Of a stretch of DNA of 64,000 nucleotides, positions 9,559 through 36,541 are shown one piece after another. The first letter of the stretch is position 1; each line of letters starts with the position of its first letter. Where the stretch lies: assembly GCA_021234155.1 (NCBI GenBank), contig JAJEKV010000205.1:1659501-1723500 (forward strand), written 5' to 3'. Origin of the DNA: Isoetes taiwanensis (Eukaryota > Streptophyta > Lycopodiopsida > Isoetales > Isoetaceae). The notes under the pieces are model-generated. The model worked only from the letters and a program-made list of their open reading frames with translations, did no database searches and was not told where the DNA came from. The translations under genes were made by a program, and so were the position numbers.

Positions 9559-9564
9559 GCGAAA

Positions 9565-10896
9565 ATGAGGAGAATGGCACGCAAAGCGACGCAACCCACC
9601 ACGCAAAAGACGCAGGCAGGAGTGATTCAAGGCGAAGGAATAACATATGAGATTAATCACCCCCCGCAAGAGGATCGCCGCTGCTGCTCAAGAAGCCGAA
9701 ATCAATGAGCATGTCGAGGTATTCCCAGAATGCATTACATGTAGATAGAACTCTAAGATAAAGCAAGACCCCCGGGACCGAATCTAGCCCCTGTTAGAGA
9801 TCCTAGCCCAATGAGAAGATTAAGAAAAGGGAAGTGAGACAATTGTTGAGAATTACGATGATGATGAACTGATTAGCATACATACGTCCAGTCCAAGTGA
9901 CACAGATAATTCTGAAACCAACAAGAAGAAATGGAAAAAAAGAAAAAAGAAAGGCCAAAGCAAGCGGGTTCGTAAAACAAAAGGGCCAGTTGGTGGTGAT
10001 ATTTCCATAACAATAGGCATTGGTGGCACAGATGTGGATCCTAAAATGATAGATAACATTTTAGAATTTTTCATGGACCATTGTTATGCAGGACTAGTTG
10101 CAACAGAGCGAGGATCAAACCTAGATCACTTGCACTTCCAAGGCACAGCTAAACTCAAAACAGTTGGAGTACGAGGTGCTGCAGCATTATTGAAAGCAGC
10201 CATGAGATGGGACACTTCAAAGCCAGGCGGAGCAAAAATAATGTGCAGGACACTTAAGGACACCAAGTTGCATTGCTTTGAAGGCATGTTGGGTTACTGT
10301 ATGAAAGATTTTGGTAAACCCCATTTCAGTGTTCGTATGCATAATGTGTCATCTGCTGAATTGATGAGAGGAAAAGAGAGATATGCACTTTACGGAAAGC
10401 GGGGAGAGATCAAAGATGAGATTTGTTTGGATCCCAAAACCTTCTTAAAAGGTCCAGCATTTTGCAAATTATAGCATGCACAATCGTCGCAAAGCCACCT
10501 CTAACATATGCAATTACAGAGATGATTAGAACAGGCAAATTTTATCTAAGTGCACAATGGGCTATACCTACAAATGGGCAGAATCTAGACCAAAGAAGAG
10601 TTGAAACAGCATATGACTTGATGATGAATCCAGCCCAGGCTACTCGTGAGAAAGTTTCTTTAGTTTTATGGGGACCGCCACCAACAAACACAGCACAGTC
10701 CTCAAGAGCTCGTAGCAGTAATCCATTTGCTAATCCACCAAGGTATTTTGACGAGCCTCAACCCGTAAACGAAGACCCAGATGAAATTATTGAGGCACAT
10801 GTTGCAGACCGAGTTCAAAATACAATTGTAGTTGGTGATGCAGGCGATGATGAAATCTACCTAACAAACTGGAACTCATCCTTTGTAGCAGTTTAA
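9565..10896 (+). pseudogene. Replitron-like HUH/Y1 Rep, copy 1 (frameshifted)
   Basis: This encodes a single-domain Rep-type HUH endonuclease, expected to nick and join single-stranded DNA during transposition. A basic N-terminal exon (ATG 9565, donor at 9719) is followed by a Lys/Arg-rich stretch (KKKWKKRKKKGQSKRVRK), then beta-strand ISITIGIGG. The HUH motif is H-L-H at 10127-10135 (DHLHFQG). LHCFEGMLGYCMKDFGK follows, with the candidate catalytic Tyr at 10295 and Lys at 10304. The body is shared with copies 2 and 3, including the MIRTGKFYLSAQWAIP region. Frame changes occur near 9672 (in a C run), near 9820 and near 10470. No helicase domain follows, unlike Helitron RepHel. Plant geminivirus Reps also have HLH and YxxK motifs, but the conserved flanks here are unlike them. 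Confidence 0.75.
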
Positions 10897-11067
10897 TGCT
10901 TTCTAGTATCACAATGCTAGATATTTTTGTTTAATGTCACATTTGCAATAAAGGAAACCATAGCAACTATTTCTATTCCATCTCTCATTCCTATGTTTGT
11001 TGTACAATTGTTATTGTAATACTTTCTTTCAACTGCAATTAACCTCTTTTACTGCACATTCATGCAG

Positions 11068-11477
11068 GATATTGATCACCCCAACATGACACCTATACAT
11101 AATGCACCACTTGCTCCTGAAGTCAACAATGACAATGAAGCAGAAATTATTATAGTCCCTGAGAGCCCATCGAGTGAAAACGAACCTCAATTAGTTCCTC
11201 CAAAGATCGGCCTGAGCCACCACCTCCATATGGTGAAGACCCCATTGACGTGATTTCATTATGGCTAGTCGGATATATCAATGACATGAGGTCATCCATG
11301 CAGCAAATCCGAAACGCATTAAACTCCATTGAAGCCTTTATACATGATGCACATGTTCAGTTGGACGTTGATCAGCAAAGGCAGTTGCGTACTCAAATCA
11401 ACAGGCTCCATGCTATTTGCAGACTATTCCTTAGACAAATCAACCAAGATGTCTCCCGCATTATAGGACACATTTGA
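11068..11477 (+). CDS. Second ORF downstream of Rep copy 1
   Basis: After a pyrimidine stretch and acceptor-like catgcag the frame reads DIDHPNMTPIHNAPLAPE, an acidic/proline-rich stretch, PPPPYGEDPID, then a helical C-terminus (MRSSMQQIRNALNSIEAF and INRLHAICRLFLRQINQD) ending at 11477. One single-base shift lies near 11205, just before the PPPPYG segment. It sits 170 bp after the Rep stop. Copies 2 and 3 have a similarly placed small ORF after a similar acceptor, so it may be a spliced downstream exon or an accessory protein. No known family is recognised. The C-terminal half is repeated in the inverted duplication at 11963-12476. Confidence 0.5.
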
Positions 11478-12476
11478 TTTTAAGGTATACAAACACCATA
11501 ATATATGTTTTCCATCACACATTGACATTCTATGTCATTTCTACACATTATTCAATAATATTGTAGTTCTAATGCTTTATAATTTTTCTTTTCATATTTT
11601 AGCTTTTTTTTAAAATTTACATTCTATTGCAATTATTTCCAACATTCAATTGTTACCCTAACATAAACCATTGCATTATTAAAAAACATATGAAAATCCC
11701 CTAAGACCCCTTTGGTTTGGGTGCATATTCACCGCAGGGGGTCCGCGTAGAAGCGAGAGCCCTTAAATTATATTATATATTATGAAATTGACACCATATA
11801 GTACATTAAGTGAAATCTTATAGTATTTCGCACACTTGCACATACCGTATACAAAAATTTGTACAAGGATACCCCACAAGCGAGGAACGCTATCTACGGT
11901 CCACATCAAGGAATATAAGGCATATATGCCCATCAGGAGCTCGTTGCCGGAGTGACCCCGATGTGAATATGCTCCCAAACCAAAGGGGGTCTTAGGGGGA
12001 TTTTCATATGTTTTTTAATAATGCAATGGTTTATGTTAGGGTAACAATTGAATGTTGGAAATAATTGCAATAGAATGTAAATTTTAAAAAAAAAGCTAAA
12101 ATATGAAAGAAAAAATTATAAAGCATTAGAACTACAATATTATTGAATAATGTGTAGAAATGACATAGAATGTCAATGTGTGATGGAAAACATATATTAT
12201 GGTGTTTGTATACCTTAAAATCAAATGTGTCCTATAATGCGGGAGACATCTTGGTTGATTTGTCTAAGGAATAGTCTGCAAATAGCATGGAGCCTGTTGA
12301 TTTGAGTACGCAACTGCCTTTGCTGATCAACGTCCAACTGAACATGTGCATCATGTATAAAGGCTTCAATGGAGTTTAATGCGTTTTGGATTTGCTGCAT
12401 GGATGACCTCATGTCATTGATATATCCGACTAGCCATAATGAAATCACGTCAATGGGGTCTTCACCATATGGAGGT
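11222..12476. repeat. 511-bp inverted duplication around a 230-bp spacer
   Basis: Arm 1 (11222-11732) and arm 2 (11963-12476) are near-identical reverse complements. Both encode the C-terminal half of the Rep copy 1 second ORF and its 3' flank. Outer edges are ACCTCCATATGG and its complement; inner edges are GCATATTCAC and GTGAATATGC. Differences include one base that changes Arg to Gln and several homopolymer lengths, so the arms are not simply one molecule read twice. Confidence 0.9.
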
Positions 12477-12779
12477 CTAAAATACAACTACAAATATCTC
12501 TCTCAAGAATATCTCTCTCAAGAATAAGCGATTGACAATAAGCTATAACTTGTATGAACAAATGATACTCAAGGAGCTCTGAATGAAGATGGAGAAAACA
12601 AACAAGTTCAAGTATCTATAAGACAAAGGTGAGTTCACGAAGGTTCCCCTTCAAATTCAAAATCTTAGCGTGCTCCTTACGCTAAGAGGACACCATTTAA
12701 TGCATGTTGTCATACAATCTTGCATATGTGCCACAAGATCTTACACACGTGCCTACACTCCTCCATTTTATTTTACAAA

Positions 12780-13320
12780 ATGGAAACCTTATAAAGTTTC
12801 CTATCCGAATTAGAAACTTTGAAAACCTAATGTAGTATCAAGGGAAACTTAATGTAGTTTCTTTGGAAACCTAATGTAGTATAAGTTTCTTTGGAAACCT
12901 CATGCAGTTTCAAATTCAAATTCAAAATATTGGGTACTCCTCACGCTAAAAAGACACCATTAATGCATTTGGGAACACAATCTTCCATAAGATCTTACAC
13001 ATGTGGGTAGATTACATTTTGTCATACAATCTTGAAAATGTGCCACAAGATCTTACGCATGTGCCTACACTCTTTCATTTCATTTTAAAAAGCGGAAACC
13101 TTATTAGAGTTTTCCCAAAAGTAAACTATGTATAGTTTCCATAAAGGAAACCTAACATAGTATCCATGGAAACTTAATACAGTTTCAATGGAAACTTGAT
13201 GTAGTTTCATGGAAACTACATTAAGTTTCCATTGAAACCACATTAAGTTTCAATGAGAAACCCTATGAGGTTTCCGGCGAACTCCAACCCAAATCGGGAG
13301 TAGAAAAAACCATCGCACCA
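12780..13320. repeat. Right inverted end: GAAAC/GTTTC array + CCCAAATCGGGAGTAGA
   Basis: Many imperfect palindromic units of the type GGAAACTTAATGTAGTTTC occur in both orientations, ending at about 13285-13320 with CCAACCCAAATCGGGAGTAGA. In reverse complement this matches the left end at 6515-6545. The stretch 12477-12780 before it has no recognised gene. Confidence 0.5.
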
Positions 13321-13746
13321 TTGGGTTATAATCTTCATCACTGTTGACTTTTTTTTTTCTTTTTTCTTATGCTCTAAGCATGTGCTCGTACCTTATGTGT
13401 TTGACAGATTGTACCACGCTATTCTGTCAATGCCAAGTGCGACTTTTCATCGACCATGTTACTCTTTTTAAGGCAGTCTCCGAGTTACCATTGTTTCTAT
13501 TAAATTTACGGTTCTTATGTTTCCCCTACATTTGCCAAACATTAGTAAGTTCTTTAGCTATTTTAGCTTCAATCCCCTTACATTTTTGTTGTAAATCTGC
13601 TGCACAATCCAGATCTGTGATAGTTGTTGAATGAAGTTATGAGAATTTCTCTGAAAGTAATGTTGAAACAAGTGAATCACAAAAGACTCAAATTTCTCTA
13701 TTCCAAGAAGACGATACAACAGTGGAAGGCGCATTCTGATCAGTCT

Positions 13747-13784
13747 GCATTGGTCCTACTTTATAGCATTGGTCCTACTTTATA
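13747..13784 (+). repeat. 19-bp direct repeat upstream of the TATA box
   Basis: GCATTGGTCCTACTTTATA occurs twice in perfect tandem, about 70 bp before a TATA box. It may be a duplicated promoter element. Confidence 0.8.
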
Positions 13785-13852
13785 GCCCCTTCGAACAAAA
13801 GTTTTTTCCCATCAAGAACCCCTGTGCACGGAACCCAAGGCAGACCTTAGCC

Positions 13853-13859
13853 TATAAAA
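13853..13859 (+). promoter_or_regulatory. TATA box upstream of the 262-aa ORF
   Basis: CCTATAAAAGGGGGCC is a strong TATA-box context, 112 bp before the ATG at 13971. A pyrimidine/AC-rich leader follows, as in plant core promoters. Confidence 0.55.
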
Positions 13860-13970
13860 GGGGGCCTCATTTGTCATTTTCCCTACATCAAAATTGCTCT
13901 TAGCATCCTAGGCGATTTTCCAGCTCCCTATTGATCTCTGTAAGCCATTTTCTACAGTCACCTCTGTTTA

Positions 13971-14759
13971 ATGGCGCCCTCAAGCTTTGTTAGATGGTAC
14001 GATGCTGCCAACCATATCCGTGATTTTCCTGCTGAGCAAGCCTTCCATGTCTTTGACCACCTCTTTGATCTCCATGCAACATTGAGTAGAACTCCCTCTT
14101 ACACTGATATCATCTGCCAATATGACCAGCAGGTCCTACCCTGGGAAGTTAGCTTGCCCCCTAGGGGAGGGAAATGGGTATCCCTAGATTCGCTTAGCCA
14201 AACCTTAGGGGGAGGATCCAAAAGCAAGCTCTGGGATAGGACTAGACCCATGCCTGACTACATGACCTGCAAGCATAATAGGCACAGATACCTTTCAGCC
14301 GCTGCAGCCCTAGCCTTGTTCATGCAGTATAAGTCAATCAATAAGGCAGGTGAGCCCTCAATGCAGCCTTTAGATTTATCACCTCTCGACACCCGAAGGG
14401 AGAAGATCAACATCCACGAGATCGAGTCTTCAGAGTACGAGTACTATGGCTCCACCTCAGGAACACCGACGCTGCAGATTGAGCAAGACTACGAGCAGCA
14501 AGGGGAGGAGAACCCAAGTTGGGAGATGAGAGAAGCAAGGAGGATGGAGAGGCGAATAGCTAGGCAAGAAGGCACATTAAGGCGAGATTTCGAACCGCCA
14601 ATTGGCATCACAGCCCTGTCACCAGTAATCATCGACGTCGAGGAGTACATCTTGGCCAACGACATCATCAACCTTCCCTATTGCCAAGAAGAAGGTCTCA
14701 GGATCGATGAGCTCTTAGGCTTAATTGCACAAAAGCAGGGCAGGGTGTTTGAATTATGA
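13971..14759 (+). CDS. Unrecognised 262-aa protein
   Basis: An intact 262-codon frame starts at ATG 13971 (GGCGCC context) behind a TATA box and a 19-bp duplicated upstream element. The N-terminal half has aromatic and His-rich segments (WYDAANHIRDF, CKHNRHRYLSAAAALALF). The centre is acidic and Tyr-rich (ESSEYEYYGS), then a charged helix (EMREARRMERRIARQE). The end is a module with PIGITALSPVIID, a hydrophobic helix and INLPYCQEEGLRIDELL. That module recurs in decayed form at about 15480-15663. I do not recognise the family. The compact TATA-leader-ORF layout next to a retroelement could suggest a viral or transposon gene, but no polymerase motif links it to one. Confidence 0.55.
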   Translation: MAPSSFVRWYDAANHIRDFPAEQAFHVFDHLFDLHATLSRTPSYTDIICQYDQQVLPWEVSLPPRGGKWVSLDSLSQTLGGGSKSKLWDRTRPMPDYMTCKHNRHRYLSAAAALALFMQYKSINKAGEPSMQPLDLSPLDTRREKINIHEIESSEYEYYGSTSGTPTLQIEQDYEQQGEENPSWEMREARRMERRIARQEGTLRRDFEPPIGITALSPVIIDVEEYILANDIINLPYCQEEGLRIDELLGLIAQKQGRVFEL

Positions 14760-15429
14760 TTCTTAATTAGATTTAAGCCTTAATAATGTTAGATAATATT
14801 AATGGCCAAGCCTTAGACTTAGAACCAAGACCCTCAAGCTAGATAGAGACAGCATCTGCACTCATCATAGCTTAGTTGTCGCTCTTATCTTGCTAAGTGT
14901 CTTCTTGTCTACATACAGGTAGCATAATCAAGCCTTTTTCTTACAAACCCAGCTAGTTGCCAAGGCCTTAGAAATTGTTGTCACACGTTGGTATGATACA
15001 CCAACACACGTTATAGGTGCACTATCATCAAATGTCTTCAGCCATGCCTTTGTATCATAGATAATTATCTAGGAATTCATTCTATCTAGGTAATTTGGTG
15101 TAACACACCAAGTACACCTAGTGAATAAGTCTCCTTCTACCACCCCCATGATAGTAAATAAGTACCTTTCTCAATGTCTAGTAAAGTGCCAAATGCCAAG
15201 TGGATCAATTGAAGTAGAGTGGATAAAGGTATAAAATTAGGGTTTGTAGAGTAAGTAAACGTAAATAATTGTTGTTGTTGTGGTAGTATTAGTTGCCTTG
15301 TCCACTTACGACAGTAAAATAGGTTAGGAGAACCTTCGTTGCAGATCCTCGAGCCTCGACAGTGGAGCCACTCGACAACATCAACGAATTGAAAGCAGAG
15401 GGCAACTTTACGGAGGAAACTTCAGCAAA

Positions 15430-15663
15430 TCAAAGGCCAAGATGGTGTACAGGGAATCCCGAACATAAATAATAAAGGGGAGCCTATAGGAAGGACAATT
15501 GCGCCATCAAGATTAGACACAAGAATTGCCAAGAGGGCTATGCAACATCCAATGGGCATCATGGCACTTATAAAATTGATCACATTAGGGGAGGGGCATC
15601 CCCTAATCAAGGATATTCTCCAAGTGCCATATTGTCTCGAGGAACGACCCCACATCGATGACT
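15430..15663 (+). pseudogene. Second copy of the 262-aa ORF's C-terminal module
   Basis: The plus strand reads RIAKRAMQHPMGIMALIKL, then LIKDILQVPYCLEERPHIDD and stop. It aligns with the end of the 13971-14759 ORF: RIA-R, P-x-GI-x-AL, then the D-I-hydrophobic-PYC-x-EE-x-x-ID ending. Upstream coding is broken. It may be a diverged duplicate of the ORF. Confidence 0.45.
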
Positions 15664-17459
15664 AATGTCATAGCTACGCCACCAACAAGTAGACTTCATC
15701 GACTTATGATATCAAGAGCCCTAAGGGATGAGACTGGACCTCCTCGGAAGGGCAATTATCATAGGTATCCAGGCCATAGTAGTATCAGATTTGGACTTCA
15801 AGCAAACATGCTTTGACTAAGGAGGTCTTACAAGCCAGCAAGGGTGAGCTACTCAGGAATAGGAATATGGCGAGACTGCAACAAACTTCTTCCTCATCAG
15901 CCCCGATACTTCAGACCAGCTACATCAACCTCGGCAAGCATCATCTCAAGATCATGATGATCTTCGATCTTCTACCTTAGAGTTTGGAGGTCAAACACCA
16001 TCAAGAAGAGGCATCATGGGGGACCAAATACCAGCATTATTAATTGATCAGTCAAGATTAGTCCTTGCAGATGGATGCACATAAACTTCTCTCAGCAAGA
16101 GAAGTTGCACAGTTAGAAGTGGTAAAGCACTCAACATTGTCATCAGCCTTATAACAACAGCATGCAACCAGCAGGACGAAGAATAGAATCGACAAGGTTA
16201 ACACAACAATATCAATCCAGGAGTTAGAAGAATCATCCTCGAATCTCATAACCTTCAAGGCAGATGAGTCAAACACGAAAGATTCTACGCAGTGGTGAAC
16301 ATTACCTTCAAGCCTTTGGGATGCAACATCGAGCCTTATGTTGCCACTACATCAGCAAGTCTACTAAGAGGGATAATGTTAAGGAAGGTAGTCCGCATCA
16401 ACATTAAGGACGAGCAGAGTAAGAATATGTTCAATAAAAGAAAGCAGGGCACTTGAATGATCATACAGCAACTCCAAGGAGACCAGATTCTTTTCAACAA
16501 ATTATGGATCATCGCCTTGCTACTCCAACGACTAATGACTACACCAGCTTTGAGCAAGCTAGAGGACCTATCAGATAGTTGAGTTTCTTAGAATTATGGG
16601 TGATAACATCCATGATGGGATTGGGACAAAATTTCGAGTAGATTTTTTTATTATTTCTTCTAGAAGGAATGCACCCAAGAATTGAGCAAAGCTTCAAGGA
16701 TTGGGAAGAAAATGTATGGAGTACAATAATGGTATACATTGCTGGCAGATATCCAACGTATTGGAACCTCTTCGTGAGCTTGATCACCTCGCTAAGAAGG
16801 ATTCAATAATAGGATAACCGTCGACCATGCATATGACGAGTACTTCCGCAGCATAAGGAATAATCCGACCAAATGAAGGGAAGCAATCTAATAAGTTCGG
16901 CCAACTTCTTAGATAGCATCAACTCAAAGGTGGGACTATTTCAAGAGGGCAATAATTAAGAAAGGGCAGATCCTAGAGTATAGATTAGATCTAAAACGAG
17001 AATAATTATCTAATCATATAGTTTTCTATGTGTGCCCAAAAGTAATGTCATGCTTACTAAACTTGTGGCCATAGGATTTATGTAAGTAGTTCTTTAACTT
17101 GTAAATTTTGCTCTTTCTAGATGGCGGACATCTTTAAGAGCAAGACTCTTAAGTCTAAATCTAGGCCAGTAATTAAGCCAAGGCCGAGTAATTAGCAGCA
17201 CCAACGGAACAAGACTCAAGTTCGACATCAACCTTAAGCGAAGCAAAGTAGAGCATCGACACCAACTTATGTACATTGGCAATTATGACCTCATAATAAG
17301 CATGCAATATTAAAGCTGGCTAAGGCAATAATTGATTATCATAAACAAGAGATACTTATCCCAGCACCAAAGGGCAAGTACCTTATAATTTAAGTTAAGG
17401 AAGTAATTCCAATCGTGCAACGCATGTCAGTAAAGCAATTACTTAAGTACATCATGAGG
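15664..17459. other. Decayed sequence, probably retroelement gag/protease remains
   Basis: No intact frame. Short plus-strand stretches look coding, such as MADIFKSKTLKSKSRP at about 17119, but stops are frequent. Its position just upstream of gypsy pol suggests gag and protease relics. The 5' LTR and primer binding site of this element were not found. Confidence 0.3.
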
Positions 17460-19642
17460 AATGAGGTCGTACATAAGCTACAAGTTGTCGACCCCGACTA
17501 CAAGAGTAAGAAGGAAGATGCTACTTCGAAACAGTTGCCTATTCCTAAGTTAATTAAGAAGTCCCATGATATATCCCTTGATGAAATTTGAGAGTTTTTG
17601 CTCTATAGAGGCGTAGAGTCTGAAATCACTCTTGCACCGGATGCAGAGCCGATTAGCAAGGCTCTTTATAGAATCAGCACTTCTGAGCTAGCAGAGCTCA
17701 AGAAACAGTGTAAGAGTTGATCGACTTGGGATCCTTCTAGTCTAAAGATGTATATCAACCATGGGAAGCTCAACAAGTAAACGACATAATGGATCAGCCC
17801 CAAGAAGCAAGATTCTTCTACAAAATCGACTTAAGCTCGGGCAATCAGCAAATAAGGATGAAGGGGGAAGATAATTATAAGACTCCTTCAGAGCACGATA
17901 TGGGCACTACGATCTCACAGTAATGCCCTTGAGTCTATGGAATGCTCCACCAACTTGTATGCATTTGAGGACGACATCTTCGAAGATTGTTTTGGACGAG
18001 TTCGTCATCAATCTCTCTTCAACGACATCGTGATCTACAACAAATTAATGGAAGAGCATGTAGCCCAATAGAGAGAAGCCATGGAGATGCTAAGACGCCG
18101 CCACTCATTGGCAAGCTTTTGAAGCATCAATCTGCAATGCCATCTCCACTTCGGCAAGCGAATTCGGCAAGAAGATAGAAGAAGCCATCTCCTATAGAGT
18201 TCAAGCATATATGGGCTAGTCTTTGCAAGAGTGCAAGGACGGATTAAGAAAGAGAAACCTTCAAATATTTTAAAAAGGAAGGCAACCTTTAATATCAAAG
18301 AACAACTATGCGTACCTAAAGCATCAGGAGTAAGGAAAATCCTTCATGATACGCATAGTAGCCCTACTTTTGGCCATGCAGAATCTACAAAGGCCTACTT
18401 CAAGATTAGAAGTAGCTATGTCTGGCTGGGCATGAAGAAGCAGATAGTCAGATATATCCAAGAATGTCAGTGGCGTCAGCAGGCAAAGGCAGAACAACTT
18501 CAACCTCGGGAGTCTTGGAACCTTGGGCGGTGTCAAACGCCAAGTGGAAAGTTATCAGCATGCATTTCATAGCGGGTCTTCCAAGGGCAACAAGAAGCTT
18601 TGTCGCCTTGAGGGTCGTGGTATATAACTTATCAAAAGGGCACATATACTTGCCATGCCACACCATAGACACCGCTTTGGATCTAGCCGTGTGGTCTATG
18701 TAAGAGTTCTTTTAGGCTGCATGGAATGCACAAGTCGATCATCACCAATAGAGATCCGAAGTCCTTTAGCGACATTTAGCAAGACTTCTTCAACACGAGC
18801 TGCATCAACTTGTTGATGAGTTTTGCTTATCATTTGCAGTCAAATCGACAAAGGGACCGCACCAACACAATTTTGGAGACCACATTGAGAAACTATGATT
18901 GGAACAAGTAATCCAAATGGGCCGAGTACATCCACCTGGTCAATTACGTACAATAATATGAAGCAAGAGTCATCGAAGATGTCCCCCCCATGATCGGTTA
19001 CAGTTATCAATGCTTGACCCTAGTTATGTGGCATAATCTAGTGCCCAAGGTGGAAGTTTCTCAACAACGACAGCATATATGTGGTAGCTTTTGGTAGAAG
19101 TGTGAGAGTATCTTCAAACAGCATGGGCATATCTGAAGAGTCTAGCAGATAGACATAAAACTCCTCGAGAGTTGTTTTGTTGTGAGAGATAAAGTTTGGC
19201 TCAAGTAAAGGTTAAGCAAGGGAAGCTTCGCATCGGCAATTGTAAGAAGCTTGCCCCTAGGTGGGCCGGTCCGTTCAAGATCTTGGAGAAGAGTGGGCTC
19301 TCAGGCCTACAAGTTGGATCTCTCGGCCACCTTAAGGTCTTCCATGTGAGTTTATTGAAAAGGCACGATCCTAACCTTGATGAGGTTTTGGATACTCCAA
19401 CTTTGTTGGAAATGACGGAGGATCAAGTTGAAATTGTGCCTGAATTGCTTCTTGATAAGTCATTCAAGAGGACTAGGTGGTCTCAATTCCTCCAGTATTT
19501 GGTCAAGTGGAAGCACTTGCCCGTGGAAGACGCGACATGGGTATTGAAGCAGGATTTGGAGAAGCAATACCCAGAGTTTATGAAGGAGTTTGATGGGCGA
19601 GTCGTCTCCGAATTGATCGACGCCGAATTGCCAAGAGGTTAG
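17460..19642 (+). pseudogene. Decayed Ty3/gypsy chromovirus pol (gypsy-1)
   Basis: Fragments occur in the usual pol order. At 17600-17720: APDAEPISKALYRIS and SELAELKKQ, the protease-RT linker. At 17780-17960: RT pieces (FYKIDLSSGNQQIRMK). At 18270-18500: the integrase zinc-binding region (LCVPKASGVRKILHD, FGHAESTKAYFKIRSSYVW). At 19196-19642: the integrase C-terminus and chromodomain-like end (GNCKKLAPRWAGPFKI, VFHVSLLKRH, LQYLVKWKHLPVEDATW). Many stops and frameshifts separate them. It is closely related in sequence order to gypsy-2 at 32703-50871. The chromodomain-like tail, which targets integration in chromoviruses, is the best-kept part. Confidence 0.85.
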
Positions 19643-22116: not shown

Positions 22117-23008
22117 TCTTTGGTGCCATTAAGCTAGACCAGTGAGCTATTACGCTGTCTTCGAAGGATGGCTGCTTCCAAGCCCACCTCCTGGTTGTCA
22201 TCCCTTAATCACTTCCTTTTCCACTAAGTAATAGCTTGGGGACCTTAGCGTACAATCTGGGCTGTTTCCCTCTTGACTTCGGATCTTAGCACCAAGTCCG
22301 CATGCGTACTCATGGTTGGCCTCAGTATTGAAGTTTCCTTTGGGGTTGGTCAAGCTTGGGGCCACCCTAGCCCATGGAGTGCTCTACCTCGGGCCATCAT
22401 TGTATATACGCTCTACCTCAATAGATTTTAGGAAGAGGCTATGGCCTTTCACCCCTAGCCACGCGAGTCGCCCCCGTGATTCGCTACATACGTGGGTTCG
22501 GGTCCGAAGGCTGTTATAGCTCTCTTCAACCTGCTCATGGCTAGGTCGATCGGTTTCGGGTCAAACAGAAACAACTAGCCATTCTCATTGCGCCTACACC
22601 TAATGGCTTAAGCTGCTGTTTCCGTTTACTCGCTGACCCATTATGCGAAAGGTACGCCGTTAGAGTTCACTCTCTTCTCCTTCGACTGATGGTCGGCATC
22701 GGATTTCAGTTCTCTATTTCACTCCCTGTTCTAGGGTTCTTTTCACCTTTCCCTCCTGCATGCTGGCGCGCCATCTGGTCATTGAGGAAGACTTAGGCTT
22801 AGAGGGCGGTCCCCCTTGCTTGTTGCGATATTCAAACACGGTATCCGCGTTTTACTGTTTGGGAAAGACCATGGGAACAATATACAGGGCTATCACCTCC
22901 TTTGGCAAGATTTTCCAACCTCTTCGCGATTCCTTGGTCTTTCCGGATGAGTGAGGCCCACCGCCTTCTCACCAAGCCCAATCCGCTTTCGCTCGCCGTT
23001 ACTAATGG
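22117..23008 (-). rRNA. Mitochondrial-type LSU rRNA fragment (nuclear insertion)
   Basis: Read on the minus strand, this matches the 5' third of bacterial-type 23S rRNA, including the conserved stretch ending AGCGTAATAGCTCACTGGTC and the block corresponding to GTCCCCAAGCTATTACTTAG-like sequence. The segment TCTAGCTTAATGGCACC after CTCACTGG is closer to plant mitochondrial rrn26 than to the plastid gene, so a mitochondrial origin is inferred. It is a fragment within transposon DNA and has no promoter or processing context, so it is not a working rRNA gene. It abuts the gypsy-1 LTR at one end and a DHNA-CoA synthase exon at the other. Confidence 0.8.
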
Positions 23009-23122
23009 ATTGCATCATAGGGTCAGAAAGCATTCTGTAGTGGTAATGATCAAAGTGTACGTGGAAAACATGGCTATGTTGGCAGCGACAATATTGGTCG
23101 TTTAAATGTTCTTGATTTATAG
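23009..23122 (+). pseudogene. Second copy of DHNA-CoA synthase exon 3
   Basis: A 102-bp exon (23021-23122), with 12 bp of the upstream intron, matches exon 3 at 5592-5693 with few substitutions and no gaps. It reads [19 protein letters not shown] ... NVLDL and then TAG, where the intact copy has CAG. The oxyanion-hole GG is changed to GN. No other exons of the gene are nearby. It is fused on its 5' side to mitochondrial rRNA sequence. Confidence 0.9.
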
Positions 23123-24570
23123 GTACTGGACTAACCTGGTGCAAGGGGGGGTTTATAGTTAGTAATCACGCAACTCATTTGGATGACCTTTAGGTTTTTT
23201 TTTTAAGCAAAAACATACATATACGCATATCAAATATATGGTTTTTTCCATTTCACACCATACCAAGTCATGAGGGGGTAAGTCGATGGGGGAGGGAAAA
23301 AAAAACATAGGTATAGGAGGGGGCTCGTTGATGCGGGAAATGCGGATAGTGATTCTCGCATTGTTGCAGAAGGTTATGTTGGACTTCAAGATAGCCTATT
23401 GCGTCACATCGATGATGGTAAGATGCAGAAAATTCAATGTTTGATTAGACTGGCCCAAAGATTAAGAAAATTGGTCACGTGTTTCAAAAATAAACCAATC
23501 AAGTTTCTTCTTATTGAAGTTTTCATTCACATTGAAATTGTCAATGCCATTATATCAGCTCCCTATTGTCCTTCTACATGAAAGAGCTCCAAAGAATTAC
23601 ACAACTAAATTGAATTGTCCACGAAGGCTATTTGTCCAAACTTTTATCGTGAGTAGTATCATTTTAGATCTTAAGGAAATGCGTTATAAAAACAATATTC
23701 GCTCTACTATAAACAATGACTTGAAGGCTAATTTTATTGCATTTGATTGGACAATTTTTTACAATTTTGTTCATAATATTAAAATGATTTTGGAAACTTT
23801 GAATACAATACCTTTTGCCGCTCTAGTGCACTTATTGTTTGTTTCTATGTTAATTTTCTTAGCCTTTGTTTTGTTAGAATTTCTCTTATCAAACTAGGGG
23901 CCCAAAATGGGATATCAAACAATTTTGCATGTAAGCTAGGTTAAGGACCATCTAAGATGTTGAAAATGTGACAATGTCATAAATAGACCACGAAAATGCA
24001 TCTTTTTTTTGGAATTTTTAGAGAATCTTTCAAGGATACTTTTTCAAAGTGCATTTAAAGCAAAATAATGTGTTTCAGTTTAAACTTTGTTTACTAATGC
24101 AAAGAGCTTTTTCCTTAAAAACAATTCACACGTCTTTTCTGTGCCTACAAATGATTTCGCCAGTGCCTCCCCAGTAGAATGGGTTAGTGCATTCAGATGT
24201 AGAGGGTGAACGTATTCCTCTCCTATTGGTGCTGGCCTTTCTATTTCTCTGCTCCATTCTGTTAATTTTGCAGCATCTAATGGTTTGGCCTCTGTGCCAT
24301 TTACTACTTTTCAGGATGATCCTCTCATTAAGATCAATTGGAGCTTAACCTCTCCATACCCTGTGTAGAAATTTGCCATCTCTCTCAAAGACGAAATTGC
24401 ACAATTCACAAATTTGTACCTCTGCTAGTAGCTCTCCTACTTGAAGAATCGTGAGGCATGCTGCGAGTGGGAAAGAAGATTGAGACAATGGTTTCGAAAA
24501 CATTCGAACAAGAAAGTTTGAGATTCGAATGCGTAACAATAGTACTGAAGGAGGAGACTAGTTGAAAGAC
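23123..24570. other. No gene recognised
   Basis: One exon-like stretch (about 23372-23417) has an acceptor (cattgttgcag) and a donor (gatg/gtaag) and reads GYVGLQDSLLRHIDD; I do not recognise it. The rest is AT-rich without conserved domains. Confidence 0.3.
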
Positions 24571-24632
24571 ACTTCTCCTTGGAGATGTTGCTTTATGTGA
24601 CTGCCTATTATGTAGCTTTGAATCACCCTTTG

Positions 24633-24850
24633 GTTCACTCTCAACAATGCAAGATGAACCCTAATCTCCTGCCTTCATTGTTTCTTTCTTCAATTCACTC
24701 TAAAAAATGCAAGACGAACCCTAATCTCCTGCCTTTGCTTTTGCTTTCTACTACTCATTTGGTTCTCTCAACAATGGGAGATGAACCTAATTTCTTGCTT
24801 TTGCTGTTGCTTTCTTTTATTGCGCATTTCTTGCTTTTGCTATTGCTTTC
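24633..24850 (+). repeat. Three imperfect ~60-bp repeats
   Basis: The unit built on CAATGCAAGATGAACCCTAA, TCTCCTGCC and TTTCTTTC occurs three times between 24640 and 24830 with drift. No gene function is apparent. Confidence 0.7.
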
Positions 24851-25756
24851 TGTTTGCTTTTGCTATTGTTTTCTGTTATTACACATTCGCCTGCTCTAAT
24901 TCTACCATCTAAACAACATAGAACATAATAACAACAATGTCTGGAGTAAGCATGTAGTATTGATAAGTGAAGAATGATAACAAAAGGTACATGCATCCAC
25001 AAGATGGAACGTTGAAATTAGGACATGACCCTTAGTGACATGTCATGCCTCTATCTAGGCGAGTGTGGGCAAAGTTTTTAAACCCAATCAAAATTTTCTT
25101 TCTTTCATTAAATAGCCAAATATTTTCTAATCCCAATCAAAAATTTGTATTATTCTAAACAAATATGCATAAAAGTCTACCAAAATTTTTCAATTTTTCT
25201 TGCAATGCGCTAACTCAACCAAAAATTCTTAGTTTCAACCATAACAAACCTTCTCTACCCCAAAATTTGCCCAACAGTGATCTAGGCTATAATGTGTCCG
25301 AAATTGCAAAGCGTATAGTTATACTATAAGATTTGGCAATGGTTAAGGGTTGTATTGGTATGGGAAATCGTATGTTGCTGACGCTGGCAACACAGATTCC
25401 CAACCCTAGAATCATGGGCGGGCATTTTGGAGCTCGCGAGCGCTGGTTGGGCACAGGTGTTGGTGTCGCCTTGGGCTTCTGCAGGGATGGCGGAGCTCCT
25501 GGTGATGTGGCCGCTCATCTGGTTTGTTTCTTTTCTGGTTTGGGTGGATAAGCTGGGGTCGCGGGCAATTGCGGGGAGCGGAGGTGCATTGAAGAAGACA
25601 GAGGTAAGCTTCTAGCTTCTTGCTTTTGCTGCATTGATTTTACACATTACCTGCTATGTCGATGAAGCAGCCAGAAAGGCTCAGAGTGGGCGCTCCTCTG
25701 GCCCTGCTTCTGTGAGCCATGTCTTGAATTCCAATTCCGGAGTGAGAGGCTAGGAT

Positions 25757-26670
25757 TTGTTTGCTGATCAGAATTTGAACCTGATAGATGTGAGTGTGAC
25801 CCTAGGTTTGTCTGGGCAGGATGTCCCTGTGAGTTTCTACGATGGTCTTGTCGGTTTTTGTAATAGGAGGTGTGTTGCCGGAGCTGTAGCTATGGAAAGG
25901 GGTGCTACTGTAGACCACTTGCACTGTCAGGCTGTCTTTAGAGGGCGTTTCAAAACCCCCAGGGCCATGAATGATGCCATTAAGAAGGAATTTAACTGGG
26001 CTAGTAAGCCTCCTGGTGTTATCCTGGTCTGTAAAGCCTTGAAGAATACCCGCCTTCACTGTTTTGAAGGTATGGTTGGTTATTGTATGAAAGATTTTGG
26101 AAAGGTCCACTATGTCTGTCACCTTCATAATATCAGTGAGGATTGCATCGAGAAAGGTAAGGATTTATACCTGAGATGGGGAGCTGGTGACACTAAGAAC
26201 TTAGTTGTGCTTGATAATAAGAATTTGCTTAATCGTGCTGCCCATTATGTTAACTATCATGGCAACCGTAAGATGACTGCTAGCCTCCTATTTACATTGG
26301 CCAGACTGATCCGTTCTGGTAAGTTTACACTATCCAGTTCTTGGATTATACCTTCCAATACTGCCCACATTAATGAGCACCGTGGTAGGGCAAAGCATGG
26401 AGGGTGCTCCTAAATCCTTCTCAATGCATGCCCTCCGACATGAGAACTATTTTGTTTGGGCTACCTTTGGGTTCGTGCTCAGAGAGCCGAAATGGCCCCG
26501 GGAGGAGAAGGTATTGGGATGATAGCATCCCTGAGGATGAGCAAGACTTTAATTTCCAGGATGTTTGTGATGAATCTTATAGTCATGACAGTGATGATGT
26601 GGTTGTTTTGGAGCCTGGTGTGGATTTCATCCCCGTGCACAGGGGTGATTGCACCATGGCTGTTGGGTGA
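25757..26670 (+). pseudogene. Replitron-like HUH/Y1 Rep, copy 2 (one frameshift)
   Basis: This is the best-kept Rep copy. LIDVSVTLGLSGQDVP opens the domain, GAVAMERGATVDHLHCQA holds the HUH motif (H-L-H at 25916-25924), and LHCFEGMVGYCMKDFGK holds the candidate catalytic Tyr (26081) and Lys (26090). Next come NLVVLDNKNLLNRAAHYVNY and LIRSGKFTLSSSWIIP. A frameshift near 26385-26410 leads into the C-terminal part, MPSDMRTILFGLP, an acidic stretch and CTMAVG-stop. Exon-like upstream sequence ends at a donor (gacagag/gtaagc) at about 25601. There is no helicase. Motif order and the single Tyr fit Replitron transposases; CRESS-virus Reps are the nearest alternative, but their superfamily-3 helicase is absent here. 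Confidence 0.8.
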
Positions 26671-26743
26671 TCATATTTGTTGGCTTTCGGATGTACAGTT
26701 TTGTCTTTTTTTTCATGGCTTTGTTTGGTTCTTAGTTGCAGGT

Positions 26744-26930
26744 AGTGATGGAGACTGATGGAGAGCACAATTTGGGGGGTGGAACAGCCTCCTGCTGTAT
26801 CTTTGCCTGATTCCTATATTTCCTCTAGAGTTGAAGCTTCACATCCCGATCCGGTCATATTTCTACTGAGCCCGGAGGCAGTTTTTTCGCTCAAGAATTT
26901 GTTAGTAGCATCGGTGTGGGGAACCGGCGC
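26744..26930 (+). pseudogene. Second ORF downstream of Rep copy 2 (truncated)
   Basis: An acceptor-like tagttgcag is followed by METDGEHNLGG, a one-base shift in a G run, then PPAVSLPDSYISSRVEA and PVIFLLSPEAVFSLKN before coding is lost. Its place, 75 bp after the Rep stop, matches the second ORF of copies 1 and 3. No helical C-terminus is seen. Confidence 0.35.
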
Positions 26931-27137
26931 ATAGGATTGCGGGCGCCCTTGCGCTTGCTTAGGAGGTACTCAATGGGTTCTATGCTTGATCCGTAATGCT
27001 ATCTCTGGCGTAGAATGGGATCAATTGGGTGTACCAGACCGAAGTTACATGTGTTGGCGCCTCATATGAGCCGCTTCGCGGCAAGAGATTCGGCGGTTGG
27101 ATGAACTGATTAGGCATGCTCAGAGTGGCGCGCCCAT

Positions 27138-27235
27138 GAACTGATCTGTTTTCATCTCCTTCTTTATGTTTTTGTGTGGCCTGGAAGAACTGATCTGTTT
27201 TCATCTCCTTCTTTATGTTTTTGTGTGGCCTGGAA
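27138..27235 (+). repeat. 49-bp tandem duplication
   Basis: The unit starting GAACTGATCTGTTTTCATCT occurs twice, head to tail, with perfect identity (27138-27186 and 27187-27235). Confidence 0.9.
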
Positions 27236-27435
27236 GAACTGCTTATGCTTTTATAAATGAGAAACTTGTTTATTTTCTGAATGTGTTGCAGCTTGGTCTG
27301 GCAGGTATGATCTTGACACGTGTTCATTCTTTTGCATGAAGCTGCTGTATAAACGGAGTTTCATAGTGGCTCTTTACATATTGAAATAATATGTTGATAC
27401 TAACTCCTTTTGTTTGTTAGTGGGCTTCGGCCCCT

Positions 27436-27524
27436 AGGTATACTAGGCATCTCTCCTTTGAGATGCCTAGTATGCCTGGATGAGCGTGGGATCTGCTACT
27501 GGGGTTCGACTCCCCAGGCTCATC
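27436..27524 (+). other. Two adjacent strong hairpins, the second tRNA-minihelix-like
   Basis: Hairpin 1 (27436-27477) has an 18-bp stem (AGGTATACTAGGCATCTC with its near-perfect complement) and a 6-base loop. Hairpin 2 (27479-27524) has a 7-bp outer stem GATGAGC/GCTCATC around a T-arm-like stem-loop CTGGGGTTCGACTCCCCAG. The latter contains the Pol III B-box GGTTCGACTCC. D-arm and anticodon arm are missing, so it is not a normal tRNA. It may be a tRNA relic or a structural end of a mobile element. Confidence 0.55.
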
Positions 27525-27839
27525 ATTGTCTGTTTTCAATGTTTAATATTCTTGTTTGACTGCTAGGTGCAAAGCATGATATTTTTCCAATGGTTTTATC
27601 AAATGTTAGGGGTCAAGTCAAGCAAGATAGATGGGCCCCATCGTTGACCCCATCTTGACTTGTGTTTGAGGGCTCGAAATTCACCCCATGACATATGCTG
27701 TGGCATATGCCAACATCCAATGACCCAAATTAATTTTAATACACCCAGAACAATAATACACCCAGAAACATAATATGCTGACTTAAATAACATATCATGC
27801 CTGCCTCCATCTAGGTTGTATACTGACTTAAAAATACTT

Positions 27840-27953
27840 GGGAACATCCATGCCCCAAATCCATTCAAACTTCAACCAGAACCAATCAATTTGTAAAAAC
27901 ATCCATGCCCCAAATCCATTCGAACTTCAACCAGAACCAATCAATTCGTTTTA
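27840..27953 (+). repeat. ~58-bp tandem duplication
   Basis: ACATCCATGCCCCAAATCCA and the following ~35 bp occur twice in a row with two or three differences. The ORF running through it on the plus strand is low complexity and lies in the 3' flank of the minus-strand membrane-protein gene. Confidence 0.8.
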
Positions 27954-28324
27954 CATAAAGGACCTCCTTTACTTAAAAGGAGTTCATTCAAACAAAAAGA
28001 GGACCTCCTTTATCCAACTAAAAACAAAAAGTCAGAAATCATTTATAAGTTTCAGACCACATTATTTATTTAAACTCAAACAGATTACACAGAACCTTTA
28101 TATTTATACGACTAGTTCCAACTCGGAACTCCTTTATTTATATAAGATACATTCTTACAAGGAAGCAAGCAGCCTAACTCCTCATCCAGGGATTACAGAA
28201 AGAGGACATCTTTTATTTATAAAGAATTTACATTCTTACAAGGAAGCAAGCAGCCACACTCCTCATCCATAAAGAATTATAGCTCTAAAGGCTTGGAATA
28301 TGGTAAAATGTAAAGGCAAAAGCG

Positions 28325-30182
28325 CTAATAAAGGCGTTCTGCAGAATGCAAAACAGGCTCTTTAACGCCACCTTCGATGTAGGAAGTATCAGCTCGATGC
28401 TTGGCCACACCTTCAATGAAAGGCTCTCTTCCTTCACGTTCTCTCCACAGCTTTTCTTCAGCACCTCCTCTCAAGGGCTCAAGGGCATACCCCTGTCTCT
28501 CTAACCCTTGCAGCTGCATTACTTTTATGGCATTCATGATAGCTCCCAACAAAATAACTCCAGCTCCCCATATTGCAAACCATGTTGCCGTCCTCTGATC
28601 ACATAACCCAATATTTTATTAAGATCACCTGATACAAGCATCATACAAAGAAGGAACCAACAAAGCCACCACTCTTTTACAATATTATTAAGATTACTCG
28701 ATACAAACATCATACAGAGAAGGAACCTAAAGCATCACACAAAGGAACCAACAAGACCGCCACTCTTATCTCAACATCATACAAAGGAAACAACAACCCA
28801 ATATTATTAAGATCACCTGATACAAGCATCATACAAAGAAGGAACCAACAAGACCGCCACTCTTTTTACTTATCTCAACATCCTTACAAGCATCATACAA
28901 AGGAAACAACAAAGACCACTCTTTACTACCAGGACTTGCCTCTAAATTACTCATAAACTCGAACATCAAGCTTGCTAAAACTTGTAGTATTTGTATCACA
29001 AACAAAGTAGCATTACTCGGAGAAAGGAAGGGAAAAAAAAAAAAAAAAGCTTCAAGCTATCCATCAACTCAGACATCCAGCCTTGCCAGACATCCAGATT
29101 GCTCTGATCTAATTCATCAACAGTGCAAAGCAACTCACTACCAACATCAAACGAGCAACTGTTATCAACATCAAATATCATCTCAGACATCCACCTTTTC
29201 TCTAAATCTACTCATTCATCGACGGAGCAAAGCAACTCCAAAAACATCACACAAAGCAGCTCATTATCAACATCTTACATCATCCTAATCCTACAATATC
29301 AAACCTCTTTGACAAACACTTTTAAGAACCATATTGAACCCCAAAGTTGGAAAAACGCCTGTGAACGACTTACCTGTGCCCTATGAGCTGCAATAGTTGG
29401 CCAAGTATTAAGACCTAGAACTCCTCCCACGAGCAAAAGTGCGCTTCCAATCAAAAACGGAACTGCCACCGATCTCTGCATCGCTTGCGCCTGTAAGCCA
29501 GCTCGCTCAAATACCTGGAAGGAGTTATGAATTGATCCTAACAGCCACAATGCTGGCCCTGCTATTAAGAGTCTTGATGCATGAATCACCAACGCTTCTT
29601 TGCTCTGCCTGGAGTACCTTCCTCTTGATGTCTGGCAAAAAGAGCAAATCAAATGTATTCTTAAAATTAAACTCAGACTTGACCTAAGGTACATGCACAA
29701 CAAAGGCATCAAGGACACTTACCAACTAAAATCTAAAAGACAAAAGAATTTTGATCTCTATAACAAAATCTATGATAGTCTGAAATCTATGAAAGCTTTA
29801 AAAAAGCCAGCCAAGTAGTTCTTACCAGCATCAAGAACACAACTCCCACCAAAATTAGCAAAGACCCAATGCTCTGCACTATAGGGGCCAAGATCTCAAC
29901 CATAATAAGCTGAACATCCAGCTTCATCAAATCTGACCGATAATTCACTGCAGCTACATGCGCATAAAGATCATGCAAGTTCACAAAAAAGATGACAATC
30001 ATAGACACAAGCAAGAAGATGAGTCCCAATTTTCCATTGTATGCAGGGAGCTGAAGGACAAGGCCAGCCAGGAGCAAAACTGCAGCTGCTAGGTAAAGAA
30101 AAGCATTAACTGATTCAAGCCAGTCTCTATGAGCTCCAGGGCCATAGAGCCTGCCCTTTCTGACTGTTGCCAACTTAACCAT
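28325..30182 (-). CDS. Six-helix plant membrane protein, three exons, apparently intact
   Basis: Exon 1 (30182-29826) starts MVKLATVRKGRLYGPGAHRD. Exon 2 (29631-29374) and exon 3 (28594-28325) follow with GT/AG borders and no stops, giving about 294 residues. Six hydrophobic segments are visible: three in exon 1 (AFLYLAAAVLLLAGLVLQL; LGLIFLLVSMIVIFFVNL; a third around SIGSLLILVGVVFLML), two in exon 2 (LLIAGPALWLLGSI; FLIGSALLLVGGVLGL) and one in exon 3 (WFAIWGAGVILLGAIMNAI). The soluble tail (REREGREPFIEGVAKHRAD) is charged. I believe it belongs to a conserved but unnamed plant family; no function can be given. Intron 2 (28595-29373) holds repeated sequence. This intact gene shows that the indels elsewhere are not simply a window-wide base-calling problem. 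Confidence 0.75.
28608..28980 (+). repeat. ~190-bp direct repeat within intron 2 of the membrane-protein gene
   Basis: The order CCCAATATT, TATTAAGATCACCTGATACA, AGCATCATACAAAGAAGGAA, CCGCCACTC recurs at about 28608-28790 and 28797-28980, with internal partial copies. Similar repeats (TACATTCTTACAAGGAAGCA, twice) lie at 28148-28265 in the 3' flank. Confidence 0.75.
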
Positions 30183-31137
30183 AATTCAAAGCCGGAATTG
30201 TTAGATGCTTGCTCTGAATTGGGCTCCAAAATGCAATGCGTATAGCAAACGAAGACATAGAATATTTTGTAGTAGATGGAACGGATTTAGATGAAGGACA
30301 CCGGGACAAGTGGCATGGTGCATGTCTTAGTGCCACGTTTGCACCAGACAGATAAACTTTAGGTGGCATAAAATCTGCTTTCTCTTTCAATGAATTCATC
30401 TACCTACTGCAATAAAAAAATTAAATAAGTTACCCTCCATTTCAACAGTGTGATCTGCTTGGTAACATGTTGGTGCATTGGTTATCTTATCATGTCCATA
30501 TCTCATATTATAGGAATGCGTGTTGCAGAGTAGTGCAAGTGCGTGTCTCATAGTTAAGCATTGGGAAACCTTGTCGTTTCTATGTTGAACCATTTATTTT
30601 TCTCATCATTAATCTTGATCCTGAAGTGCAAATGAGTATAATTTATAGATAAGTTCTTCGAATTGAATTGAAGTTTGTCATCCATGTACGCCAAAATGGC
30701 CTATCGGATTCAATATAATAAACAAATGCATTGGCCTCTTACAAATAGCTTGCGTGATTAATCAACCCTTGTAGTATAGAAATCTGACCCTCTTTGTGCT
30801 TATGCTTTAGTATTTTAGGTAATGCATTCCTCTCCCAGTGAGGGCCTATTGGTCTCTGTAGATGATAAAAATCCATTTAGAAGGTATTGTGTAGAAAGGC
30901 GTATTTTGTGATGGTGGAGGCCAGGGTTTGGTTTTTGGGTCGAAAATTCCTTTGTGGCATGGGACGAACAGGAGGCAAGTGAGCCGAATCATGGAGACGA
31001 AGGCGGAACTAGAGTTCCACATGTCGGATTTGATGGTGCACGTTGGCGGCTATGCGACGTCGGCATGTCTTCGATTCATAGGAGGTAAGTCAGAGCGCAG
31101 GTCTGTATGTTATGTGTTGTTGAAGTTTTCATAGGAG
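30183..31137. other. Upstream region of the membrane-protein gene and possible 5' exon of Rep copy 3
   Basis: 30183-30900 would hold the membrane-protein promoter (minus strand); no clear element is seen. A plus-strand exon-like stretch ends at about 31083 with a donor (cataggag/gtaagt) and reads METKAELEFHMSDLMVH before it. It could be a 5' exon of Rep copy 3. Confidence 0.3.
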
Positions 31138-31266
31138 TTTTGTGGAAGGAATTTAGACACTTTATCTTAAGCTCGTTTTTGTCCTCTTTGTTGGAGCTGC
31201 CATAGAATTTGTGGAGGGAATTTAGATACTGTATCTCAAGCTCATTTCTATCCTCTTTGTTGCAGG
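31138..31266 (+). repeat. 70-bp tandem duplication spanning a splice acceptor
   Basis: The unit starting TTTGTGGA(A/G)GGAATTTAGA is repeated at 31138 and 31208. The second copy ends TCCTCTTTGTTGCAG, a good acceptor; the first copy has GTTGGAG at the same place. Confidence 0.75.
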
Positions 31267-31297
31267 TGCACACAGTTTCCACAATTGAAAGGTAAGA

Positions 31298-32329
31298 TGT
31301 TAAAGAGGCAAGCTAGGAAAGGGAAGGGAAATATTGGAGTTAATTTGTATGCTGGCAACATAAATGAGCTGATGGAAGTCTGTAGTAAGGGTAGGGGTAC
31401 TAGGGGAGCGTGAAAGCCAGGGATGATGGGAAGATTGCAGAGGAAGGAACTAGCCTACTTGATGTAAGTGTAACTCTGGGATATGCAGGAATGGATATCC
31501 TAGAGTGGATGTATGATCCGTTGGTTGGGTTCTGTAAGTCTGAGACAGTGGCGGGGGTGATGGCATTAGAAAGGGGCTCAGAGTTGGACCACTTGCTCTG
31601 CCGGGCAGTCTTCATGACAGCCATCAAAACTCCAAGACAAGTGAACACTACAATAAAGAAATTCTTTGGTTGGGGTGTTCACAAGCCAAGGGGCGTCCTT
31701 CTGATTCGAAAGGACCTAAAAAACACGAAGCTTCATTGCTTCGAGGGTATTGTCAGGTACTGTCTCAAGGATTATGAGAAGGTACATCAAAGTTCGGCCT
31801 TCATAATGTCACCGAGAAACAAATAGAAATAGGAAAAGATCTGTACTTGCGCTACAGTGCAGGGGATCTGAAGAATCTTGTTGTGTTGGACAACAAGAAT
31901 GTGTTGCATAGGGCTGCCCATTATATGAATTACCATAGTAGGAAACAGATGTCTGCTAGCCTTGTGTACACCGTGTGTCATATGCTATACACAAAGAAGT
32001 TTGTGCTATCTAGCCAATGGATCCTACCGATAAACACCGCGTTTATTTCTGAGCATAAGGTCAAAGCAGGTTGGAGTATGACTCTGAATCCTGAGCATCC
32101 AATGCCTAGTGATGTTAGATGCGTCCTCTTCGGTGTGCCCGCTAGAATGCAGCCTATGGAGAGAATTGGGAAGGGGAGGAAGTAGTACTGGGATGATGCA
32201 GGTAGCAAAGGCGATGAGGACGCACACTTTATTGATGTGCAGGAGGAAGAGTATAGGCCGGAAGGAGATTGCAGCGGAGTTGATTACATACCTGTGGATT
32301 TAATTGATTACACTATGGCAGTGGAATAA
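31298..32329 (+). pseudogene. Replitron-like HUH/Y1 Rep, copy 3 (HUH degraded)
   Basis: The N-terminus is basic (MLKRQARKGKGNIG, ATG 31298). After a one-base shift near 31408 it reads SLLDVSVTLGYAGMDI and MALERGSELDHLLCRA: the HUH motif is H-L-L (31590-31598), so the second His is lost. LHCFEGIVRYCLKDYEK keeps the Tyr (31758) and Lys (31767). A frame change near 31785 precedes NVTEKQIEIGKDLYLRY and NLVVLDNKNVLHRAAHYMNY. A stop near 32185 precedes the acidic tail, which ends DYIPVDLIDYTMAVE. It shares all blocks with copies 1 and 2. The loss of one metal-binding His plus frameshifts predict an inactive protein. Confidence 0.75.
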
Positions 32330-36540: not shown

Positions 36541-36541
36541 G

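Follow-up and report, generated by a model that had tools for sequence, protein, structure and literature searches.

Three transposase genes in a 64,000-nucleotide stretch of the genome of the lycophyte Isoetes taiwanensis (assembly GCA_021234155.1, contig JAJEKV010000205.1, positions 1,659,501 to 1,723,500 of the forward strand; hereafter the window, whose own numbering is used throughout) almost certainly belong to Replitrons of three different families. Comparison of their copies across the genome supports a polarity in which the 5′ end of the element is constant and the 3′ end is loose. Replitrons were named recently and are little studied; their primary description is reportedly that of Craig 2023 in PNAS. 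The presence here of many copies, some of them apparently recent, allows element ends to be compared across three families, and thereby opens to sequence alone the questions of which end starts transposition and how an HUH transposase that has no helicase terminates it.

Three Replitron transposases

A sequence-only reading of the window had pointed to three related HUH endonuclease genes, numbered here copies 1 to 3 from left to right (Table 1). The three reading frames and the motifs quoted for them were found where that reading had placed them, with the ATG of copy 1 exactly at 9565. The pattern [LIVMF]HC[FY].G...YC.KD occurs three times in the six frames of the window, once in each copy. 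Between the proteins of copies 2 and 3 two stretches align, at 56% and 61% identity, and copy 1 shares 39–42% identity with both of them in its HUH parts (E 2e-21 and 1e-36). Given these identities and the confinement of the pattern to the copies, the relatedness of the three is far beyond chance.

The Pfam model Replitron_HUH (PF21859, cut-off 28.5 bits) matches copy 1 with 74.7 bits (E 1.1e-20), copy 2 with 75.0 bits (E 8.9e-21) and all four intact relatives taken from this genome with 74.4–79.3 bits, while the frame-cut piece of copy 3 falls slightly under the cut-off (26.1 bits, E 1.2e-5). Replitron_C (PF21860, cut-off 27 bits) is correctly placed after the HUH domain in 4/4 intact relatives, at a sub-threshold 14.2–17.6 bits, and gives a similarly sub-threshold match in copy 1 (15.0 bits, E 0.033). 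Apart from Replitron_C, the remaining Pfam matches of the six pieces searched from the window are weak (E 0.023–0.26) and to unrelated families. No Helitron, geminivirus, CRESS (circular Rep-encoding single-stranded) DNA virus Rep or helicase model was matched by the six pieces or the four relatives (E limits 5 and 10). Hence, as far as Pfam models go, no rival Rep family fits better than Replitron_HUH, and the absence of a helicase noted earlier holds.

A structural model of the copy 2 HUH domain, of moderate quality, contains both the HUH β-sheet and the helix bearing the tyrosine motif; with the profile scores it upholds the view that a single tyrosine motif combined with HUH fits Replitrons. 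In an alignment of HUH domains H-L-H and Y..K are conserved, and the one tyrosine motif (YCxKD) would carry the putative catalytic residue; HUH itself is absent from copy 3 and from one of its relatives (L052). The HLH motif described for the family was seen in copies 1 and 2, but HLL proved to be private to copy 3, and its use as the mark of a type finds no support: HxH was read in 22 of 29 family 3 loci (a duplicated neighbour, L040, and 21 others), L052 has DYLI, and six gave no or a false match. The LVVLDNKN-like block ascribed to two copies is that of copies 2 and 3, and LDPK takes its place in copy 1 and in relative L005.

The predicted fold recovers the HUH Rep fold of CRESS viruses, its closest structures being Reps of a circovirus (7kij), a smacovirus (8fr5) and a nanovirus (6h8o), and the YCMKD motif resembles CRESS motif III. 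Both could be taken to mean that the genes are endogenous viral Reps left by fossil insertions, a reading we consider highly improbable. Pfam gives neither a CRESS Rep model nor a helicase, and none of 53 pattern matches in viral contigs was confirmed as a relative. Moreover, each family has tens of DNA matches that have a common 5′ end but different flanks, which marks a defined unit that is mobile. Among bacterial and archaeal genomes, 67 pattern matches likewise yielded no confirmed relative. A PDB sequence search up to E 10 gave no match, a protein database search gave no homologue at E 0.01 (229 candidates for one sequence; 7993 scored for the alignment), and PHROGs returned unnamed matches only (E 0.1–0.27). 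The collections behind these homologue searches hold microbes and viruses and are uninformative about other plants. A longer copy 2 model (219 residues) was poor (predicted local distance difference test score 49.6) and gave no Foldseek match among 1419 at E 0.001 or better; the domain model was used instead.

Three families in the genome

In the assembly (1,658,258,908 bases in 1110 pieces) Replitron_HUH matched at least 150 loci above its cut-off, these being the best 150 of 2165 first-look candidates; the lowest scored 70.5 bits against the 28.5 required, and copies 1 and 2 of the window were among them. The true number is probably larger. None of 14 control genomes gave a match. At the DNA level each copy of the window falls in its own family, each with tens of matches, in agreement with the earlier suggestion that several subfamilies coexist. 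For copy 1, 15 close relatives are 88–96% identical and 24 further ones 75–80% (best 40 of 248 candidates), relatives of copy 2 are 83–96% identical (best 40 of 719, copy 2 itself included), and copy 3 is matched over long stretches, mostly with 70–94% identity (best 40 of 296). The element bounds exceed the genes in all three cases. Lengths of ∼2.5 kb for copy 2, 2.2–2.5 kb for 20 family 2 copies and 3.8 kb for copy 1 lie inside the 0.9–4 kb of Replitrons, and a lycophyte is within their host range of green algae, liverworts, mosses, lycophytes and ferns.

A constant 5′ end and a loose 3′ end

Family 2 gives the clearest view of the ends. Among 29 aligned relatives, 25 start within the 10 bp from 25281 to 25290 at TAATGTGTCC or a close variant, and the four exceptions (L017, L019, L022 and L032) are diverged or rearranged there. 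At the other end, 21 of the 29 stop between 27734 and 27775, in a tail of 17-bp units, and eight stop earlier, three of which are probably one insertion as they have a left flank in common. Ahead of the tail stands a hairpin, GGCATATGC-TGTG-GCATATGCC with small variants, that is present in 20/29 relatives (21 of the 29 extend this far); the whole 151-nt stretch around it in copy 2 is no more stable than its shuffles (z −0.83). Of 30 copies (the 29 relatives and the window copy), 20 allowed both ends to be called, among them L022 with a doubtful 5′ end, and the remaining 10 were left out. Within the tail the 3′ ends of these 20 copies spread over ∼35 nt, and 17 of the copies have an A immediately before the 5′ end. 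A target-site duplication was not detected in them: the mean best match between flanks was 2.25 nt compared with 2.55 nt after shuffling, with 454 of 500 shuffles as high, although the ragged 3′ ends weaken this test. The candidate terminal direct repeat of the family is degenerate, TAATGTGTCC at the 5′ end and the TAATACACCC units at the 3′ end being identical at 6/10 positions. No comparable terminal repeat stood out in family 1, though no systematic search was made.

The same polarity is seen in family 1, where the 5′ end AATATCTAGC is common to all four copies examined (the window copy, L075, L081 and L082). The three relatives are identical to copy 1 over the first 314, 114 and 157 bp, and these copies therefore look young. 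On the 3′ side eight copies were examined, and the seven that could be placed have seven distinct stop points, equivalent to window positions 11912, 11922, ∼11935, ∼11991, 12230, 12358 and 12476. The eighth, L079, has only an inverted piece at its 3′ side, and the sequence past the end of L076 resembles the element again.

The 3′ part of copy 1 forms a strong predicted stem-loop (11690–12010, z −9.24, none of 100 shuffles equally stable) and ends in an inverted arm. A fresh origin of this arm by self-priming (snap-back) had been hinted at by the likeness of the two arms within one copy (98.6% in the window and 99.3% in L074, in aligned blocks), but was rejected, because only 3 of 317 positions distinguish the second arm of L074 from that of L076, compared with 22/314 and 31/449 between these arms and their own first arms. 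Since second arms are closer across copies than to their own first arms, the arm is inherited. The flanks of copy 1 (8676–8716 and 12475–12514) hold an imperfect direct repeat of ∼40 bp (GTCYAAAATACAACYACAAA...CAAGAATATCT), which may be a target repeat or an unusual duplication.

Family 3 is older. Its starts lie within 25 bp of one point in 17 of 28 loci and in the next 40 bp in four, and seven fall short; its 3′ ends range from 2382 to 4367 (the latter being the end of L045), although divergence and locus ends may shorten these alignments. Copy 3 is a remnant, and together with the region to its left (29744–32704) it is duplicated at C1052, L040, with 94–95% identity; as the two were duplicated together, the insertion seems older than the segmental duplication. 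Repeats at 32707–34250, 44569–44678 and 49445–50871 (92% and 98% identity within the window) abut its cut 3′ side.

The constant 5′ ends, the ragged 3′ ends and the 3′ hairpin of family 2 together suggest copying in the manner of Helitrons, with its start at the 5′ end and a loose stop on the 3′ side. Ragged 3′ ends could instead carry no trace of transposition and have arisen afterwards by deletion or nested insertion, or from faults in the assembly. Several observations weigh in this direction and so against a transposition origin: the differences among copies in this assembly are clustered and rich in indels, the 3′ side of copy 3 meets another repeat, and L079 and L076 look rearranged. However, when the 5′ ends of these families are located by the same method they are constant, and the family 1 copies are too young for much decay, judging from their identical 5′ stretches, yet their 3′ ends differ. 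We therefore regard later damage as an unlikely explanation, albeit one that deserves weight.

That the elements are themselves non-autonomous or diverged Helitrons we consider extremely improbable. Their polarity and 3′ hairpin are indeed like those described for Helraiser (PMC4778049), but no Helitron Rep or helicase is matched, the HUH alignment has one conserved tyrosine motif (YCxKD), and the 5′ ends read TAATG or AATATC and not TC.

On the reading that the ends record transposition, the transposase would nick at the 5′ end, at TAATGTGTCC in family 2, and host polymerase and helicase would displace or copy one strand toward the 3′ end. Cleavage would then follow close to the hairpin on the 3′ side and the degenerate repeat units (in family 2, TAATACACCC) and end the process loosely, such that every new copy acquires its own 3′ end. 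While the polarity is supported by the comparison of copies, these enzymatic steps are proposals, and we consider the mechanism as a whole about equally likely to be right or wrong. Slightly more tentative is the view that movement is one-ended and rolling-circle-like, with a precise 5′ start, a loose stop at the 3′ hairpin and at degenerate copies of the nick site, and integration that leaves no fixed target-site duplication.

Coding parts, selection and the quality of the assembly

In open copies the first coding part comprises ∼340 residues, with a basic N-terminus, the HUH domain, the sub-threshold Replitron_C match (4/4) and an acidic tail. In family 2 it is followed, after a spacer of ∼80 bp, by a second open part of ∼137 residues. 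The spacer is bounded by ATGGCT/GTTGGG and TTGCAG/GTAGTG in 21/29 loci, and since its removal keeps the frame in phase, the simplest reading is that the second part is a putative second exon of one transposase, the alternative being a separate small protein. Family 1 has a downstream coding part that resembles it and whose upstream boundary is similar, running from GCA/GTTTAA to ATGCAG/GATATT.

Both coding parts of family 2 are under purifying selection, with pooled ratios of non-synonymous to synonymous differences (pN/pS) of 0.33 and 0.26 (nine open copies each, 29 loci); a few copies are frame-shifted near the end, the expected effect of which is a higher ratio, not a lower one. Such selection would also be expected of host genes domesticated from a Replitron, but these are dispersed multicopy elements with their own termini, different flanks and retrotransposons nearby in the window, and we assign domestication a negligible probability.

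The frames of the window copies are interrupted. Stop to stop, they run from 9824 to 10471 and then 10420 to 10893 in copy 1, from 25754 to 26410 and then 26389 to 26667 in copy 2, and from 31404 to 31823, 31778 to 32182 and 32186 to 32326 in copy 3. Copy 1 and L069 have 65 differences, 37 of them indels, grouped in 18 clusters with identical stretches of >100 bp between them, and relatives differ from one another likewise in indel-rich clusters (compared over 8923–9718 and 11098–11934 in L069–L074). Judged by eye, the clusters sit where the sequence is rich in CG, CAG or CTG, and one of them (26374–26393) contains the point at which the frame of copy 2 breaks. The pattern suggests faulty base calling at methylated positions within repeats, rather than decay. 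Against such an error-like background frame breaks are no proof of decay, and ages of these families that are based on identity may be too old. Frame breaks of transposons in this assembly may reflect errors of base calling.

Other elements of the window

A Ty3/gypsy long terminal repeat (LTR) retrotransposon occupies 35083–40015 on the forward strand, in several open frames, with gag, reverse transcriptase/RNase H, and integrase C-terminal and SH3-like parts with a chromodomain. On the reverse strand, an open frame of 743 residues (41182–43413) has reverse transcriptase and sub-threshold endonuclease matches and is a LINE-type (long interspersed nuclear element) retrotransposon. The two units of a direct repeat of ∼0.72 kb (45514–46237 and 46970–47679) share 90% identity, lie 0.7 kb from each other and have a 44-bp pair nearby; perhaps they are the LTRs of a small element.

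Table 1. Features of the three Replitron copies in the window
Feature	Position	Strand	Basis and remarks
Copy 1, family 1 element	8710–12476	+	5′ end AATATCTAGCATTATC at 8710; 3′ end 12476, where arm similarity stops
Copy 1 first coding part	9565–10893	+	Open frames; ATG 9565, frame broken
Copy 1 HUH endonuclease domain (ISITIG, DHLH, GYCMKD)	9998–10384	+	PF21859 match 10007–10384
Copy 1 C-terminal part, next frame	10420–10893	+	Sub-threshold Replitron_C
Copy 1 second coding part, contains PPPYGEDPIDVISLWLVGYINDMRSS	11178–11474	+	Open frame
Copy 1 3′ stem-loop	11690–12007	+	DNA fold; long inverted repeat around palindrome GGCATATATGCC at 11919
Copy 1 inverted tail-to-tail copy of 11222–11732	11963–12476	−	98.6% identical; inherited in family 1; cut points vary between copies
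Copy 2, family 2 element	25290–27766 (3′ approximate)	+	5′ end TAATGTGTCC; 3′ end in ATAATACACCCAGAAC-type unit tail; 29 relatives aligned
Copy 2 HUH endonuclease domain (VSVTLG, DHLH, GYCMKD)	25787–26170	+	PF21859 match 25793–26170; fold
Copy 2 first coding part, final stretch in the next frame	26389–26667	+	43.8% identity to copy 3, E 3e-18
Copy 2 3′ hairpin CATATGC-TGTG-GCATATG	27692–27709	+	Part of GGCATATGC-TGTG-GCATATGCC in relatives
Copy 2 terminal 17-bp tandem units	27737–27775	+	Relatives' alignment; 3′ ends scattered within
Copy 3, family 3 remnant	30876–32706	+	Lacks the first part of the element; another repeat cuts the 3′ side
Copy 3 HUH domain piece, private HLL	31461–31787	+	PF21859 26.1 bits
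Copy 3 C-terminal part, another frame	31847–32182	+	61.1% identity to copy 2 over 90 aa

Comparison with known systems

The three families share with CRESS-DNA virus Reps a predicted HUH fold, and differ from them in having no sequence match in PDB or Pfam and no helicase, and in being multicopy elements with ends. The bacterial element IS91, which has an HUH enzyme, moves by one-ended transposition and has one constant and one variable end. Compared by description only, it resembles the present elements in this pair of ends and in its HUH enzyme and differs in being bacterial; IS91 is also named in the Helraiser study (PMC4778049).

With Replitrons the elements have in common the Replitron_HUH domain, one tyrosine motif, no helicase match, lengths of 2.2–3.8 kb, a non-seed vascular plant host and a high copy number. 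Replitrons are reported to have direct terminal repeats of 5–11 bp, and possibly but not universally target-site duplications of 2–8 bp; here, by contrast, the 3′ end is ragged, a target-site duplication was undetected and the candidate terminal repeat is only degenerate (family 2). The occurrence of Replitrons in a lycophyte is already known in kind (PMC10741241). The partial texts that made up our literature search on Replitrons, which did not include Craig 2023 itself, held no description of Isoetes Replitrons, and the word helitron does not occur in the main text of the I. taiwanensis genome paper (PMC8566536). The present comparison adds three families within a single window, with their termini, end polarity and second coding part, and a caveat about the assembly.

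Experiments with the Helitron Helraiser found the left end essential and the right end dispensable, with premature stops or read-through making new 3′ ends (PMC4778049). The elements described here are like Helraiser in their fixed left end, their 3′ hairpin and 3′ ends that are premature or read through, and unlike Helitrons in that they match neither a helicase nor a Helitron Rep and their termini differ. If the proposed movement is correct, helicase-free transposons with one tyrosine and Helitrons would share both polarity and the logic of their terminators despite their separate origins.

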